Of a DNA stretch of 64,000 nucleotides, positions 5,264 through 61,360 are shown one piece after another. The stretch is from Dissulfurirhabdus thermomarina. Lineage in GTDB: Bacteria; Desulfobacterota; Dissulfuribacteria; Dissulfuribacterales; Dissulfurirhabdaceae. The stretch covers positions 124,001 through 188,000 of the forward strand of contig NZ_JAATWC010000001.1 of assembly GCF_012979235.1 (NCBI RefSeq). Reading direction: 5' to 3'. Every line of letters starts with the position of its first letter. Position 1 is the first letter of the stretch. Below the pieces are notes generated by a model. That model saw nothing but the letters and a program-made list of their open reading frames with translations, made no database searches and was not told the origin of the DNA. The translations under genes and the position numbers were made by a program.

Positions 5264-5419
5264 GGGGGCCCTGGTAAAAAGGTCTCTGAGTGGACGGCTC
5301 AGCAAAAATCGCCAATGCACGGCGCGGGGATGTCGCGGAATGAAGCGTACTTACAAGTACGCCGCACGACGAGAACATCCGAAGCAACGCAGCGGCCCGC
5401 GACCTTTTGCGGCGCCATC
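5264..5419 (+). repeat. dispersed palindromic element, copy A (between lepA and lepB)
   Basis: A 156-bp element. It shares with copies C and E the blocks TCTGAGTGG, GGCTCAGCAAAAATCGCC, GATGTCG, GAACATCCGAAG and the terminal GCCATC. The perfect central palindrome is GCGTACTT-AC-AAGTACGC. It is flanked directly by the 7-bp repeat AGACCTT (5257-5263 and 5420-5426), a candidate target-site duplication. The right end supplies two bases of the lepA stop codon. The left flank also carries GCCATC before AGACCTT, so a 13-bp direct repeat (5251-5263 and 5414-5426) is seen in total. Confidence 0.85.
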
Positions 5420-7214
5420 AGACCTTCAGGACGCTCAGGAAGGCCTCCTGGGGGATCTCCACGGATCCCACCTGCTTCATGCGCTTCTTGCCGGCCTTCT
5501 GCCGCTCGAGGAGCTTTCGCTTCCGGGTGATGTCGCCCCCGTAGCACTTGGCCGTCACGTCCTTCCGGAGCGGGGGGATCCGTTCCCGGGCGATGACGCG
5601 GCCGCCCACGGCGGCCTGGATGACCACCTCGTAGAGCTGGCGCGGGATCACCCGCCGGAGGCGCCCGGCCAGGTCCCGGCCGCGGTAGTAGGCCTTCTCC
5701 TTGTGGACGATGACGGAAAGGGCGTCCACGGGCTGGCGGTTGATGAGGATGTCGAGCTTGACGAGGTCGGCGGGCCGCCAGCCGATGAAATCGTAGTCCA
5801 GGGAGGCGTAGCCGCGGCTGGCGGACTTGAGCCGGTCGTAGAAGTCGAGGACGATCTCGTTGAAGGGCATCTCGTAGGTGAGCAGCACCCGGTCCGGCGT
5901 GAGGTAGCGCATGCCGGCCTGGGTGCCGCGCTTCTCGTCGCAGAGGCGCATCACGGCCCCGACGTACTCCTTCGGGAGGTGGATCTCCGCCCGGACGTAG
6001 GGCTCGGCCACCTGGGCGATCCGGTCCGGTGGAGGCATCTGGGCCGGGTTGTGGATCTTCGTGACGGTGCCGTCCGCGAGCGTGACCTCGTAGGGGACGG
6101 CGGGGGCCGTGCTGATGAGGGAGAGCTCGAACTCGCGCTCGAGGCGCTCCTGGATGATCTCCATGTGGAGCAGGCCGAGAAATCCGCACCGGAAGCCGAA
6201 GCCCAGCGCGGAGGAGGTCTCGGGCTCGTAGGAGAAGGCCGGGTCGTTCAGCCAGAGCTTTTCCACGGCCTCCTTGAGCTGGTCGTACTGGGCGGAGTCG
6301 ACGGGATAGAGGCCGCAGAAGACCATGGCCTTCACCGGGCGGAAGCCGGGCAGGGGCGCCGAGGCGGGCCGCCGGGCCCCGGTGATGGTGTCCCCGACCC
6401 GGGTGTCGCGCACCGACTTGATGGCGGCAGTCAAAAATCCGACGTCGCCGGCCCCCAGAACGTCGCGGTCTACGGCATCCGGGGCGAAGTGGCCCACGCG
6501 GCTCACCTCGTATTCCTGGCCGGTGGACATCATCCGGATCCGGTCGCCGGGCCGGATGGCCCCGTCCACCACGCGCACCAGGACCACGGCCCCCTGGTAG
6601 GAGTCGAACCAGGAGTCGAAGATCAGGGCCCGAAGCGGACCGGCCGGGTCGCCCCCGGGCGGGGGGATCCGGCGCACCACGGCCTCGAGGATCTCTTCGG
6701 TGCCGAGGCCCTCCTTGGCGCTGGCGAGGATGGCCGCCGAGGCGTCGAGGCCGATGATGTCCTCGATCTCCCGGCGGACGCGGTCGGGGTCGGCACTGGG
6801 GAGGTCGATCTTGTTGAGCACGGGGATGATCTCGAGGTCGTTTTCGAGGGCGAGGTAGACGTTGGCGAGGGTCTGGGCCTCGACCCCCTGGGAGGCGTCC
6901 ACCACAAGGAGCGCCCCCTCGCAGGCGGCCAGGCTCCGCGAGACCTCGTAGCTGAAGTCCACGTGGCCGGGGGTGTCGATGAGGTTGAGGGCGTAGGCCT
7001 CCCCGTCCGCGGCCCGGTAGGAGAGGCGGACCGTCTGGGCCTTGATGGTGATGCCCCGCTCCCGCTCGATGTCCATGCGGTCCAGGAACTGGGCCTTCAT
7101 CTGGCGGGCGGAAACGGTGCCGGTGGCCTCGAGCAGGCGGTCGGCGAGGGTGGATTTGCCGTGGTCGATGTGGGCGATGATGGAGAAGTTCCGGATGCGG
7201 GGGGCCTCGGGCAT
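5418..7214 (-). CDS. lepA: elongation factor 4 (back-translocating GTPase LepA)
   Basis: 598 residues, the standard length. The G domain at the N-terminus shows [11 protein letters not shown] (G1), DTPGHVDF (G3) and NKIDLPSAD (G4). The EF-G-like domains and the LepA-specific C-terminal part ending near [16 protein letters not shown] follow. LepA acts on stalled or mistranslocated ribosomes. The start is ATG at 7214. A sigma-70-type promoter ends 6 bases upstream, so the mRNA may be leaderless. The stop TGA at 5418-5420 is shared with the end of repeat copy A: the last bases of the gene are a duplicated target sequence plus the GA of the element. Confidence 0.97.
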
Positions 7215-18791: not shown

Positions 18792-19535
18792 ATGGGCCGG
18801 GCCGGGCCGGCGGAAGGCGAGCGCTTCTACCGGGCGGCCATGCGGCGCCCGGGGCTGGCGGCCTTCCGGGTGCGCCACCGCGAGACGGACCTCCACGTGC
18901 AGGCCGAGCGCCCCGTGCCGGAGGCGGTCTCGCGGTGGATCATCGAGGCCCGGACCGGCATCGAGACCTACGCGCGGCGCCGCCCGGGTTTTGTCGAAGC
19001 CCTGGAGCCGTGGCCCGAAGACCCCTTCGCTCCGCCCGTGGTCCGGGAGATGATCCGGGCCGGGGCGGCCGCCGGCGTGGGGCCCATGGCCGCGGTGGCC
19101 GGGGCCATCGCCGAGTACGTCGGCCGCCGGCTCCGGGAAGAGACCGGCGGGGAGGTCATCGTGGAGAACGGGGGCGACCTCTTCGTCTGGACCCACGGCC
19201 CCGCCACGGCGAAGGTCTGGGCCGGGGATTCCCCCTTCAGCGGCCGGGTGGGGCTGCGCCTCGCCCCGGCAAAGATGCCCTTGGGGCTCTGCACGTCCTC
19301 GGGCAGGATCGGCCATTCCCGGAGCTTCGGCCGGGCCCACGCCGTCACCGTGGCGGCGCCCGTGGCCGCCCTGGCCGATGCCGCGGCCACGGCGGCGGCG
19401 AACTGCGTCGCCGGCCCTGCCGACGTGGATGCGGCCCTGGCGCTCCTCCAGCGGATCCCCGGGGTGTCCGGAGGGCTGGTGATCGTCGGCAGGCGGCTCG
19501 GCGCCTGGGGGGACATCGAGCTGGCACCTATCTGA
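18792..19535 (+). CDS. UPF0280 family protein (ApbE-like fold)
   Basis: 247 residues from ATG 18792. It matches the uncharacterised UPF0280 family, related to the flavin transferase ApbE, by the segments FRVRHRETDLHVQA, GPMAAVAGAIAEYVG, EVIVENGGDLF and LCTSSGRIGHS. The biochemical role of the family is not established; homologues are common in anaerobic bacteria and archaea. Located 5 bp after the Usp gene. Repeat copy B begins 20 bp after the stop. Confidence 0.88.
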   Translation: MGRAGPAEGERFYRAAMRRPGLAAFRVRHRETDLHVQAERPVPEAVSRWIIEARTGIETYARRRPGFVEALEPWPEDPFAPPVVREMIRAGAAAGVGPMAAVAGAIAEYVGRRLREETGGEVIVENGGDLFVWTHGPATAKVWAGDSPFSGRVGLRLAPAKMPLGLCTSSGRIGHSRSFGRAHAVTVAAPVAALADAAATAAANCVAGPADVDAALALLQRIPGVSGGLVIVGRRLGAWGDIELAPI

Positions 19536-19554
19536 CGGGGGCGCGGCCATGGGG

Positions 19555-19741
19555 GATGGCGTCGCGAGAATCACCAATCACGGTGGTGCTTCAAGCCTCT
19601 CGGCCCCTCGTGGTCCCCGGCGACGCCTCGTTCCCCGCGATGGTCGCGCCCTCTCCTCGGCGATTCTCGCCTATCCATCCTCGCGCCTTGCTTGTGGCGA
19701 TTTTTGCTGAGCCATCCACTCAGAGGACTTACGAGGCCATC
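19555..19741 (-). repeat. dispersed palindromic element, copy B (at the start codon of the MBL gene)
   Basis: A 187-bp copy in the opposite orientation to A. The ends GATGGCGTCGCGAGAATC and CTCAGAGGACTTACGAGGCCATC-like are conserved, as is the block GCGCCTTGC...GGCGATTTTTGCTGAGCCATCC. The middle is divergent and longer than in other copies. It is flanked by ATGGG (19549-19553 and 19742-19746), a candidate target duplication that contains the start codon of the downstream gene. Confidence 0.75.
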
Positions 19742-20521
19742 ATGGGAGGCGACCTTCTGGAACTCATCATCCTCGGATCCGGGACGTGCGTTCCCTCCCT
19801 CCGCCGGGCCGGGCCGGCGGTCTGCCTCCGGGCCGGCGGGCGGACCCTCCTGGTGGACGCCGCCGCCGGCACCCTCCGGCAGCTGGTGCGGGCGGGCGTC
19901 GCCCACGACCAGGTGGATGCCGTCCTTTTCACCCACCTCCATCCCGACCATGTGGGGGAGTTCGTTCCCTTCCTCTTCGCCATGAAGTACGCCCCGGGCT
20001 ACCAACGCGAGGCGCCGGTCACGGTGCTGGCCGCCCGGGGCTTCTCGGCCTTCTACGGGCACCTCCAGGCGGCCTTCGGCCGGTGGGTGGAGCCGGGCCC
20101 GGGCCGGCTCGAGGTGCGGGAGCTGCCGGTCTCCGGCCCCGCGGAGACGGAACTCGGCCCGCTCCGCGTTTGCAGCGGGCCCACGCGCCACACGCCCATG
20201 AGCCTCGGGTACCGGGTGGAGACGCCGGCGGGGCGGTCGGTGGTCTTTTCGGGCGACACGGATGTCAGCCCCGAGCTGGTGGCGCTGGCCGCCGGGGCGG
20301 ACATCTTCGTATGCGAGTGCGCGGCCCCGGAAGGGCACAAGGTGGAGGGGCACCTGACGCCCTCGGAGGCGGGGCGGATGGCGGCCGAGGCCGGGGTCGG
20401 GCGCCTGGTGCTCACGCACTTCTACCCCGAATGCGACGCCCATGACCTCGTCACGCCCTGTGCCCGGTTCTACGACGGCCCGATCCTGGTGGCGGAGGAC
20501 TTCCTCCGGCTCGCCGCATGA
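19742..20521 (+). CDS. metallo-beta-lactamase fold hydrolase, ribonuclease Z-like
   Basis: 259 residues from ATG 19742. It starts with the typical LELIILGSGTCVPS. The zinc-binding motif THLHPDHVGEF, a later FSGDTD and the distal LTHFYPE are visible, as in the ElaC/RNase Z-like branch. The substrate is unknown. The annotated ATG lies at the very edge of repeat copy B. The probable Shine-Dalgarno GAGG (5 bases before the ATG) belongs to the element end, so the insertion may have replaced the native translation signal. Confidence 0.85.
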   Translation: MGGDLLELIILGSGTCVPSLRRAGPAVCLRAGGRTLLVDAAAGTLRQLVRAGVAHDQVDAVLFTHLHPDHVGEFVPFLFAMKYAPGYQREAPVTVLAARGFSAFYGHLQAAFGRWVEPGPGRLEVRELPVSGPAETELGPLRVCSGPTRHTPMSLGYRVETPAGRSVVFSGDTDVSPELVALAAGADIFVCECAAPEGHKVEGHLTPSEAGRMAAEAGVGRLVLTHFYPECDAHDLVTPCARFYDGPILVAEDFLRLAA

Positions 20522-21174: not shown

Positions 21175-21326
21175 GATGGCCCCGGGGAAAGCCCTCTGAG
21201 TGGATGGCTCAGCAAAGATCGCCAGGTGCAAGCCGCAAGGATGTCGGGGTGTGGAGCGTACGGTACGCCGCAATGACGAGAACATGCGAAGTGCCGCGGC
21301 CCCCCGCGCATCTCGACGACGCCATC
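21175..21326 (+). repeat. dispersed palindromic element, copy C
   Basis: A 152-bp copy in the orientation of A. It starts GATGGC and ends GCCATC, with CTCTGAGTGGATGGCTCAGC, AAGATCGCC, GGATGTCG and GAACATGCGAAG. The central palindrome is GCGTAC-G-GTACGC. Runs of T flank both ends (21169-21174 and 21327-21331), possibly a TTTTT duplication. It lies between the DUF2914 terminator and the YkgJ-like gene. Confidence 0.83.
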
Positions 21327-47220: not shown

Positions 47221-47306
47221 CCGGGAGGCCCGAGGGCCCTCGGCCCGCCGCCGGGGAGGGCCGCGCGGTCGTGCCCCGCTCCGGCCGCGCGCGAGTGCGC
47301 CATGAT

Positions 47307-47459
47307 CATGCCGTCACAAAAAGTCGCGGGCTTCCTTTGTTTTGGATGCCCGCGTCATTGCGGCGGAGCCAAGTGCGCCTCATTATGTGGCATCCTCGCG
47401 CCTTGCGGCAGGCGATTCTTGCTGAGCCATCCACTCAGAGGACTTTTTGCGGGGCCATC
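47307..47459 (-). repeat. dispersed palindromic element, copy D (at the start codon of pepP)
   Basis: A 153-bp copy in the orientation of B and F: GCCGTCACAAAAAGTCGCGGG at one end, ATCCTCGCGCCTTGC, CTTGCTGAGCCATCCACTCAG and CTTTTTGCGGGGCCATC at the other. The central palindrome has decayed. Flanked by ATGAT (47302-47306 and 47460-47464), a candidate target duplication containing the pepP start codon. Confidence 0.83.
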
Positions 47460-48590
47460 ATGATGGAAGATCTCACATCGGAGCGGGCGGCCCGGCAGCG
47501 GCGCCTTTCCCGGTTCAGGTCCGTGATCCGGGCCCGGGGGCTCGACGGCTTTCTCGTCACCTCGCCCGAGAACCGGCGCTATCTCAGCGGGTTCCGGGCC
47601 GGGGACCCCGCCCTGGACGAATCCGCCGGCTGGCTCCTCGTCCTCCCCGGGGAACAGCTCCTCTTCACCGACGGCCGCTACGAGGTCCAGGCCCGCTCGG
47701 AGGCCCCGGGGTGGCACGTGGTGGTGGCCCGGCGGGGTCTTGCCCGGGCCCTGGGGCGCTACCTGGGGCGCGGCGGGGTCCGGCGGCTCGCCTTCGAGCC
47801 GGATTTTCTCACCGTGGCCGGGCACGAGGCGGTCCGGCGCGCCCTGCCGGGGGCCGAGCTCGTGGCCCTGGCCGACGTGCTGCCCCGGTTCCGCGCGGTG
47901 AAGGACCCGGTGGAGGCCGCCGCCGTCCGCCGCGCGCTGGAGGCGGCCGAGGCGGTCTTCGAGGAGGTGGCCGCCGGGATTCGGCCGGGCGTCACGGAAC
48001 GGGAGGTGGCCTGGCGCATCCTGGAGGGGCTCCACCGGCGGGCCGAGGGTCCGTCCTTCCCGCCCATCGTGGCCTCCGGCCCCAACGGGGCCCTGCCCCA
48101 CGCCGAACCCGGCGACCGGCCCCTCCGGGAGGGGGAGCCCGTGGTGATCGACATGGGGGCGCGGCTCGGCGGCTACTGCTCCGACATGACCCGCACGGTC
48201 TTCCTCGGGCGGCCCGACCCGGAGTTCGCCCGGATCTACGGTGTGGTGCGGCGGGCGCAGCTGGCGGCGCAGGGTGTCATCCGGGCCGGTCTCCCCGCCC
48301 GGGAGGCCGACGCCGCCGCCCGCCGGGTGATCCGCGAGGCGGGCTACGGGGAGCGCTTCGTCCACGCCCTGGGGCACGGGGTGGGCCTGGCGGTCCACGA
48401 GGCCCCGGGCCTCTCCCCCCGCAACCGCCGCCGGCTCCAGGCCGGCATGGTGGTCACGGTGGAGCCGGGGATCTATCTCCCCGGGCGGGGCGGGGTCCGC
48501 CTCGAGAACATGGTGCTCGTCACCGCCGGGGGGGCCGAGGTCCTCGGCCGGCAGCCGGGCTACCTGGACCTCGGCGGCCATGGCGGCTGA
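47460..48590 (+). CDS. pepP: Xaa-Pro aminopeptidase / M24 metallopeptidase
   Basis: 376 residues from ATG 47460 (47463 is an alternative). An N-terminal creatinase-like domain (LDGFLVTSPENRRYLSGF) is followed by the pita-bread catalytic domain. The metal ligands are visible: VVIDMGARLGGYCSDMTRT (two Asp), LGHGVGLAVHE (His), VEPGIYL (Glu) and GVRLENMV (Glu). It cleaves N-terminal residues before proline. The start codon sits at the edge of repeat copy D, whose end GGGGCCATC may serve as a weak ribosome-binding site. tatC overlaps its end by 11 bp. Confidence 0.92.
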   Translation: MMEDLTSERAARQRRLSRFRSVIRARGLDGFLVTSPENRRYLSGFRAGDPALDESAGWLLVLPGEQLLFTDGRYEVQARSEAPGWHVVVARRGLARALGRYLGRGGVRRLAFEPDFLTVAGHEAVRRALPGAELVALADVLPRFRAVKDPVEAAAVRRALEAAEAVFEEVAAGIRPGVTEREVAWRILEGLHRRAEGPSFPPIVASGPNGALPHAEPGDRPLREGEPVVIDMGARLGGYCSDMTRTVFLGRPDPEFARIYGVVRRAQLAAQGVIRAGLPAREADAAARRVIREAGYGERFVHALGHGVGLAVHEAPGLSPRNRRRLQAGMVVTVEPGIYLPGRGGVRLENMVLVTAGGAEVLGRQPGYLDLGGHGG

Positions 48591-59693: not shown

Positions 59694-59873
59694 ATGAAAC
59701 GATCCTACTGTCACCACGGCGCACGCGACATCCTGGCCCATTACCTCTCCCCGTTGCACCTCTTCTCGCCGGTCATCCGGTGTGCCTGCCGGACACGATT
59801 CGCTCCGGTCCGCTGGATCCTCTGCGGCGTGGTCAGCGGCTACGACCGCATCTACAAGAGTTTCATGGTGTGA
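59694..59873 (+). CDS. small hypothetical protein
   Basis: 59 residues from ATG 59694, with a good GGGAGG 5 bases upstream. Cysteine-rich and aromatic, with HYLSPLHLFSPVIRC followed by a basic helical stretch and a C-terminal YDRIYKSF. The PLH segment recalls short conserved proteins of Deltaproteobacteria that I cannot name. Codon use is less GC-rich than in neighbours. The stop TGA at 59871-59873 runs into the left end of repeat copy E (TGATGGC), and the last codons ATGGTG belong to the candidate target duplication of that repeat. The original 3' end may therefore have been altered. Confidence 0.5.
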   Translation: MKRSYCHHGARDILAHYLSPLHLFSPVIRCACRTRFAPVRWILCGVVSGYDRIYKSFMV

Positions 59874-60016
59874 TGGCCTCGCGAAAGGTCTCCTGAGCGG
59901 CTGGCTGGGCAAAGATCGCCGGATGCAAGGCGCGAGGATGTCGAGGAAGGAGGCGTACGCTACGGTACGCCGCAATGAGACAGCATCCGAAGCCCGCGGC
60001 TTTTTGCGACGCCATC
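59872..60016 (+). repeat. dispersed palindromic element, copy E
   Basis: A 145-bp copy in the orientation of A and C. It runs from GATGGCCTCGCGAAAGGTC to GGCTTTTTGCGACGCCATC, with AAAGATCGCC, GCAAGGCGCGAGGATGTCG and CATCCGAAGCC. The central palindrome is GGCGTAC-GCTACG-GTACGCC. It is flanked by ATGGTGT (59865-59871) and ATGGGGT (60017-60023), six of seven bases alike. Confidence 0.85.
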
Positions 60017-61205: not shown

Positions 61206-61360
61206 GATGACTTCACAAAAAGGTCGCGCGCCATGGTGCCGCTTCGGATGTTCTCATCATCGCGGCGCGCCTAACTGCGCCTCATTCCTCGACATTCTCG
61301 CGCCTTGCATGTGGCGGTTTCTGCTGGCCCATCCACTGAGAGGATTTTTGTGAGGCCGTC
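61206..61360 (-). repeat. dispersed palindromic element, copy F
   Basis: A 155-bp copy in the orientation of B and D: GATGACTTCACAAAAAGGTCGC at one end (shown here as separate blocks GATGACTTCAC and AAAAAGGTCGC), CTTCGGATGTTCTCATCAT, CCTCATTCCTCGACATTCTC, GCGCCTTGCATGTGGCGG, ATCCACTGAGAGG and GGCCGTC. The central palindrome is GGCGC/GCGCC. No flanking direct repeat is evident for this copy. Confidence 0.82.

Follow-up and report, generated by a model that had tools for sequence, protein, structure and literature searches.

How can a gene remain translatable when a repeat ends exactly at its start codon, and how did the repeat come to lie there? We examined this question for a 187-bp repeat between two co-directional genes in a window of 64,000 nt (the whole stretch of DNA analyzed, C1:124001-188000 of a 2.46-Mb genome in 34 contigs). 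The explanation that we consider probable as a whole is that a MITE-like element was inserted at the start of an MBL-fold gene, that the insertion duplicated the ATG and supplied a GAGG motif ahead of it, and that insertions at such gene junctions are filtered by selection.

Locus anatomy

In sequence order (19536-19760), the stop of a UPF0280-like gene is followed by CGGGGGCGCGGCC, ATGGGG, the 187-bp repeat and ATGGGAGGCGAC, with which the MBL-fold gene starts. The upstream gene matches NCBIfam NF003323 (E = 3e−77; 259 bits, cut-off 271), and the downstream gene matches Pfam PF12706 (E = 6e−21), its NCBIfam matches being under the curated cut-offs. The features are as follows.

18792..19535, + strand: UPF0280/PRK04334-like gene, upstream and co-directional (gene call; stop codon TGA at 19533-19535)
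19537..19541, + strand: presumed native Shine-Dalgarno (SD) sequence GGGGG, 7 nt 5′ of the left ATG copy and now orphaned (from sequence)
19549..19554, + strand: left copy of the target duplication, ATGGGG, the relic start codon
19549..19710, + strand: relic open reading frame (ORF), predicted only, running from the old ATG for 53 codons within the element to TGA at 19708-19710
19555..19741, + strand: MITE-like element (Repeat B), 187 bp (nhmmer catalogue and genome search)
19555..19566, + strand: 5′ terminal inverted repeat GATGGCGTCGCG, the non-SD end
19730..19741, − strand: 3′ terminal inverted repeat, the SD-bearing end (TACGAGGCCATC on the + strand)
19733..19736, + strand: GAGG, candidate Shine-Dalgarno sequence from the element, 5 nt 5′ of the ATG
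19742..19747, + strand: right copy of the target duplication, ATGGGA, with the start codon ATG at 19742-19744 (orthologue starts)
19742..20521, + strand: MBL-fold metallo-hydrolase gene (RNase Z / cyclic-nucleotide phosphodiesterase-like)

A preliminary description of the locus had placed ATGGG on both sides of the element and GAGG 5 bases ahead of the ATG, and both observations hold: the two copies lie at 19549-19553 and 19742-19746, the right one opening the MBL-fold gene, and GAGG occupies 19733-19736. The repeat does end at the start codon with a GAGG-bearing terminus, but the terminus reads TACGAGGCCATC instead of the proposed GCGAGGCCATC, and the family register GATGGC...GCCATC sets the element's boundaries at 19555-19741. 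Likewise, the proposed target duplication that keeps the ATG is real, with a length of 6 bp (ATGGGG/ATGGGA, 5/6 positions) and not 5 bp; the shorter length was dropped, since flank identity in the family peaks at 6 bp.

Repeat family, target duplications and orthologous junctions

A genome search with the element as query gave 44 matches, and a related variant gave 41. The terminal pattern TGATGGCNTCGNNAAAA has 155 matches in the genome (0-1 for the reversed control). A profile-built catalogue (nhmmer), which was drawn from the stretches around repeat matches (308 kb for the first set) rather than from the full genome and in which some ends are degraded, holds 102 copies, with both ends recognized in 87. 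The family numbers about 100 copies in the 2.46-Mb genome. Five of the other copies lie in the window.

5270..5419, − strand: family copy with an uncertain 3′ boundary; the gene that ends at 5418 owes the completion of its TGA stop to the terminal GA of this copy
21175..21326, − strand: family copy (nhmmer catalogue)
47307..47459, + strand: copy with the 3′ end CGGGGCCATC directly before the ATG of the gene that starts at 47460 (5′ end degraded)
59872..60016, − strand: family copy (nhmmer catalogue)
61206..61360, + strand: family copy (nhmmer catalogue)

At 47302-47465, the junction reads CGGGGCCATC-ATGATGG and ATGAT occurs on both sides. Completion of a neighboring gene's in-frame TGA by the initial GA of the element, preceded by a T (5418-5420 in the window), recurs in this genome at C1:679000, C2:274511, C3:192104, C1:304717 and C5:151446, and is found in another genome of the phylum (G159) as well. 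One copy runs from C12:66796 to the contig end (L209); the assembly may thus be broken by some copies.

The 49 cleanly paired copies are 132-236 bp long, are bounded by GATGGC...GCCATC ends and are all intergenic. Short length, terminal inverted repeats, dispersed intergenic copies (102 in the catalogue), a target duplication of fixed length and the absence of a transposase gene, for which the element is too short, are features of MITEs; the 187-bp copy holds only the 53-codon ORF and a read-through frame. The element is thus a non-autonomous, MITE-like transposable element. No autonomous partner with the same ends is evident in the sampled segments, and transposases of the family searched, PF01609, are absent from the genome. 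A consensus scan detected neither a promoter nor a terminator inside the element. We also considered a structured RNA and rejected it: the element folds no better than shuffled sequences (z = −0.65) and has no Rfam match.

The two ends are unequal in 40 of the 49 paired copies, one being of a G-type (GATGGCGTCG) and one of a C-type that reads outward CGAGGCCATC, and the element therefore has a direction. The 3′ end of the family reads GAGGCCATC; its GAGG is 5-9 nt from start codons that lie immediately outside the element, and the 5′ end has no GAGG.

Identity between the flanks of the 49 paired copies reaches its peak, 0.57, at a length of exactly 6 bp; for other lengths it is 0.24-0.36. Flanks match at 5/6 or more positions in 17 copies (8 perfect, 9 at 5/6), while about 1 would be expected from shuffled pairs. 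Examples of duplicated targets are ACAGGT(T), ATGGGT(T), AAGGAT, CTTCAT and TTCCTC, and the 6-bp target consensus, roughly ATNNTT, is nearly palindromic. The ATGGGG/ATGGGA pair at the MBL locus fits this duplication with one mismatch; because family copies share the 6-bp duplication, we take the duplicated ATG to be real.

Relatives with a UPF0280 gene directly upstream of the MBL-fold gene lack the repeat, and their distance from the UPF0280 stop to an anchor in the MBL-fold gene is mostly 9-43 nt; a few have longer, unrelated spacers. If the insert is removed, the same distance at the present locus is 25 nt, and the expected sequence of the empty site before insertion would be TGACGGGGGCGCGGCCATGGGRGGCGAC. 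A clear GGAGG-type site is found at the junction in several relatives. The closest of these orthologous loci has 68% protein identity, a divergence that leaves a true empty site outside the comparison.

Could the ATGGG match be a coincidence, with no insertion at the MBL start codon? Agreement at 5/6 or more positions arises in about 2% of shuffled pairs, and the divergence of the orthologous loci leaves some room for this reading. However, 6-bp duplications occur family-wide in the same register and the orthologous gaps hold no repeat, and we regard coincidence as exceedingly improbable. As far as sequence comparison can tell, the anatomy, the family's duplications and the element-free orthologous junctions show an insertion between two genes of an operon, as the preliminary description had proposed.

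Where the MBL-fold gene starts bears on a second alternative, in which initiation occurs inside the element, at the ATG at 19556, and adds an N-terminal extension of 62 residues, as with in-frame Rickettsia palindromic elements. The frame is indeed open from 19556 to 20521 (321 codons). Orthologues, however, start at the equivalent of 19742: their start codons fall between −4 and +1 codons from the anchor, with the present one at −4, and a true start downstream of 19742 is not borne out either. Gene calling by codon usage (custom script) also selects 19742, with or without Shine-Dalgarno scoring, and no well-spaced Shine-Dalgarno sequence precedes 19556. We therefore give little credence to initiation within the element and return to an insertion that kept the start at 19742.

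Orientation at start codons and the candidate ribosome-binding site

Ends of family copies that lie within 10 nt of a start codon are strongly one-sided: 12 are 3′ ends and 1 is a 5′ end when genes are called without Shine-Dalgarno scoring (binomial test, P = 0.0034), and 12 and 0, respectively, when they are called with it (P = 0.0005). Among strictly intact copies, the ratio is 9:1 (P = 0.02); these orientation P values are all from small samples. Among copies between co-directional gene pairs, 16 of 20 are parallel to the genes if they abut tightly, versus 12 of 28 if the fit is looser (Fisher's exact test, P = 0.017). Beyond 10 nt, start:stop ratios are alike for both ends and orientation is unbiased.

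Uniform intergenic insertion predicts about 5.9 start-adjacent ends per end type, and the observed sum of 12-13 is as expected, only one-sided. We rejected targeting of start codons because an overall excess is lacking (13 observed, about 12 expected). Start-adjacent insertions without such an excess point to selective tolerance rather than targeting, and it appears that insertions are lost if the end adjoining the start codon is the wrong one, selection filtering junction insertions that are random. The approximately 10 other copies that adjoin start codons in the same orientation suggest that tolerance is limited to that orientation. We infer from the bias that junction insertions survive mainly with the GAGG end toward the start, the opposite end having no ribosome-binding site to offer.

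Near stop codons (within 10 nt), there are 5 3′ ends and 16 5′ ends. The number of 5′ ends near upstream stops exceeds the expected 5.9, and start-adjacent junction insertions explain only some of them. This excess would fit a transposase that favors one orientation when inserting at gene junctions, from which the bias could arise without translational selection. Such a preference is nevertheless unlikely in our view, given the unbiased orientation more than 10 nt from genes and the near-palindromic target. The family-wide pattern is more informative than the single MBL case.

What the tolerated end offers to a start codon can be read from the start-adjacent copies. In nearly all of them, the start codon follows the GAGG of the 3′ end at a distance of 5 nt (start at +0) to 9 nt (start at +4). 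GAGG or GGGG is present in 11 of the 12 start-adjacent 3′ ends, with anti-Shine-Dalgarno duplex energies mostly of −5.9 (genome median, −6.6). The motif's conservation near starts does not differ significantly from that elsewhere (11/12 versus 50/79, P = 0.095). In some folding windows, predicted RNA folds pair GAGG partly or wholly, with a result that varies with the window.

At the MBL locus, the insertion occurred where the start codon forms part of an ATGGGR target, between the neighboring operon genes, and the 6-bp duplication left an intact ATG on the MBL-fold gene. The Shine-Dalgarno-like GAGG of the 3′ end GAGGCCATC would thereby have come to lie 5 nt ahead of this ATG, so the gene could remain translatable with its native site displaced 193 nt further upstream. 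The native upstream region has a duplex energy of −8.6, and its GGGGG is now about 200 nt upstream of the MBL start. In two other copies (C2:134147-134303 and C4:231577-231731), the presumed former sites AGAGG and GGAGG (AAGAGGCCGACC-ATG and GGAGGCCGCAA-ATG) are readable in the left flank, separated from the gene by the element. Even overlaps between genes have been split. At C2:268212-268431, the duplication ATGAAG corresponds to an ATGA stop/start overlap, with the stop in the left copy and the start in the right copy. The copy at C2:274357-274511 splits a GTGA overlap: its own GA completes the TGA of the upstream gene, and GTGA is retained in the right copy of the duplication. At C5:25463-25641, a third copy splits an ATGA/GTGA overlap with both genes intact.

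The preliminary description had also proposed that the element may have replaced the native ribosome-binding site. Displacement of GGGGG, the proper spacing of GAGG and the preference for GAGG ends at starts (12 versus 0-1) lend this proposal indirect support. Replacement by the element is thus a statistically supported reading of the sequences, from which we infer a role for its candidate site in translation. An alternative is translational coupling, with initiation at the relic ATG 19549 from the native Shine-Dalgarno sequence, termination at 19710 and re-initiation at 19742. The native GGGGG is still 7 nt from the relic ATG, and the 53-codon relic ORF ends 31 nt before the new ATG. Both processes could act together, but coupling would leave the genome-wide preference for GAGG ends at starts unexplained, and we consider it improbable. 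In the reading that we prefer, with GAGG as the replacement site, the element seems not to seek start codons; selection would filter insertions that fall at junctions at random.

Wider distribution and comparison with known systems

Among relatives from the same order, and through the phylum as a whole, the distribution of the terminal pattern is bursty, with hundreds of ends in three genomes (G159, G290 and G324) and few in most; controls are near zero. As a repeat signature, the TGATGGCNTCGTAAAAAG terminus is found phylum-wide, and its copy number shows strong bursts in scattered genera. Terminus positions 6-7 vary, and many genomes therefore have GAAG, GACG or GAGA ends in place of GAGG. 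In G159, where ends are mostly of the GAAG/GAGA type, the start-adjacent fractions (GAGG 2/22, GAGA 1/61, GAAG 0/63) have the same direction but are few and not significant; the termini of another genome (G015) read GATGGTYTCG (outward GAGA/GAAA), and it is no fair replicate. We tentatively advance, as a conjecture with somewhat less than an even chance, that the terminus of a phylum-wide MITE lineage acts in this genome as a portable ribosome-binding site and that, with the 6-bp duplication and the terminal GA, the element can split even ATGA/GTGA overlaps while keeping the stop, the start and a translation signal, making operon junctions safe landing sites in one orientation.

Compact bacterial operons offer mobile elements few harmless landing places. 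Should the end of a transposon also act as a ribosome-binding site, with the start codon restored by the duplication, junction insertions could be nearly neutral, which would help to explain the build-up of elements in operons and altered expression of downstream genes. For annotation, the risk is that a start next to such a repeat is wrongly called within it.

One point of comparison comes from Geobacter, which belongs to the same broad group. Our literature search, of incomplete coverage, found no precedent for MITEs with a Shine-Dalgarno or ribosome-binding-site role. According to a review (PMC10969869), bacterial MITEs lie between genes, have direct repeats and provide promoters, IHF sites, RNase sites or small RNAs; in a term search, that review mentions neither the ribosome nor start or stop codons. 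By its description, the Chunjie MITE of Geobacter uraniireducens resembles the present family in being short (178-235 bp), with terminal inverted repeats and direct repeats, and in having dozens of intergenic copies besides partial ones (PMC10969869). It differs in that it is not known to show a start-codon duplication or a ribosome-binding end; its presence within an operon is reported to have left that operon undisturbed. MITEAba12 of Acinetobacter is likewise non-autonomous, with terminal inverted repeats, target duplications and a possible effect on neighboring genes, but its duplications are 9 bp, its length is 111-114 bp, its proposed effect is through outward promoters and its partner, ISAba12, is known (PMC6382973). 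Rickettsia palindromic elements are also small repeats that may join coding frames; they are often in frame inside genes (review PMC10969869), whereas the 49 paired copies of this family are all intergenic. Set beside this family by description, pneumococcal BOX elements are interspersed repeats at gene borders too, and BOX encodes the stop codon in 36 cases; BOX is, however, a modular repeat of another bacterium, and its ORFs lack good Shine-Dalgarno candidates (PMC3049150).
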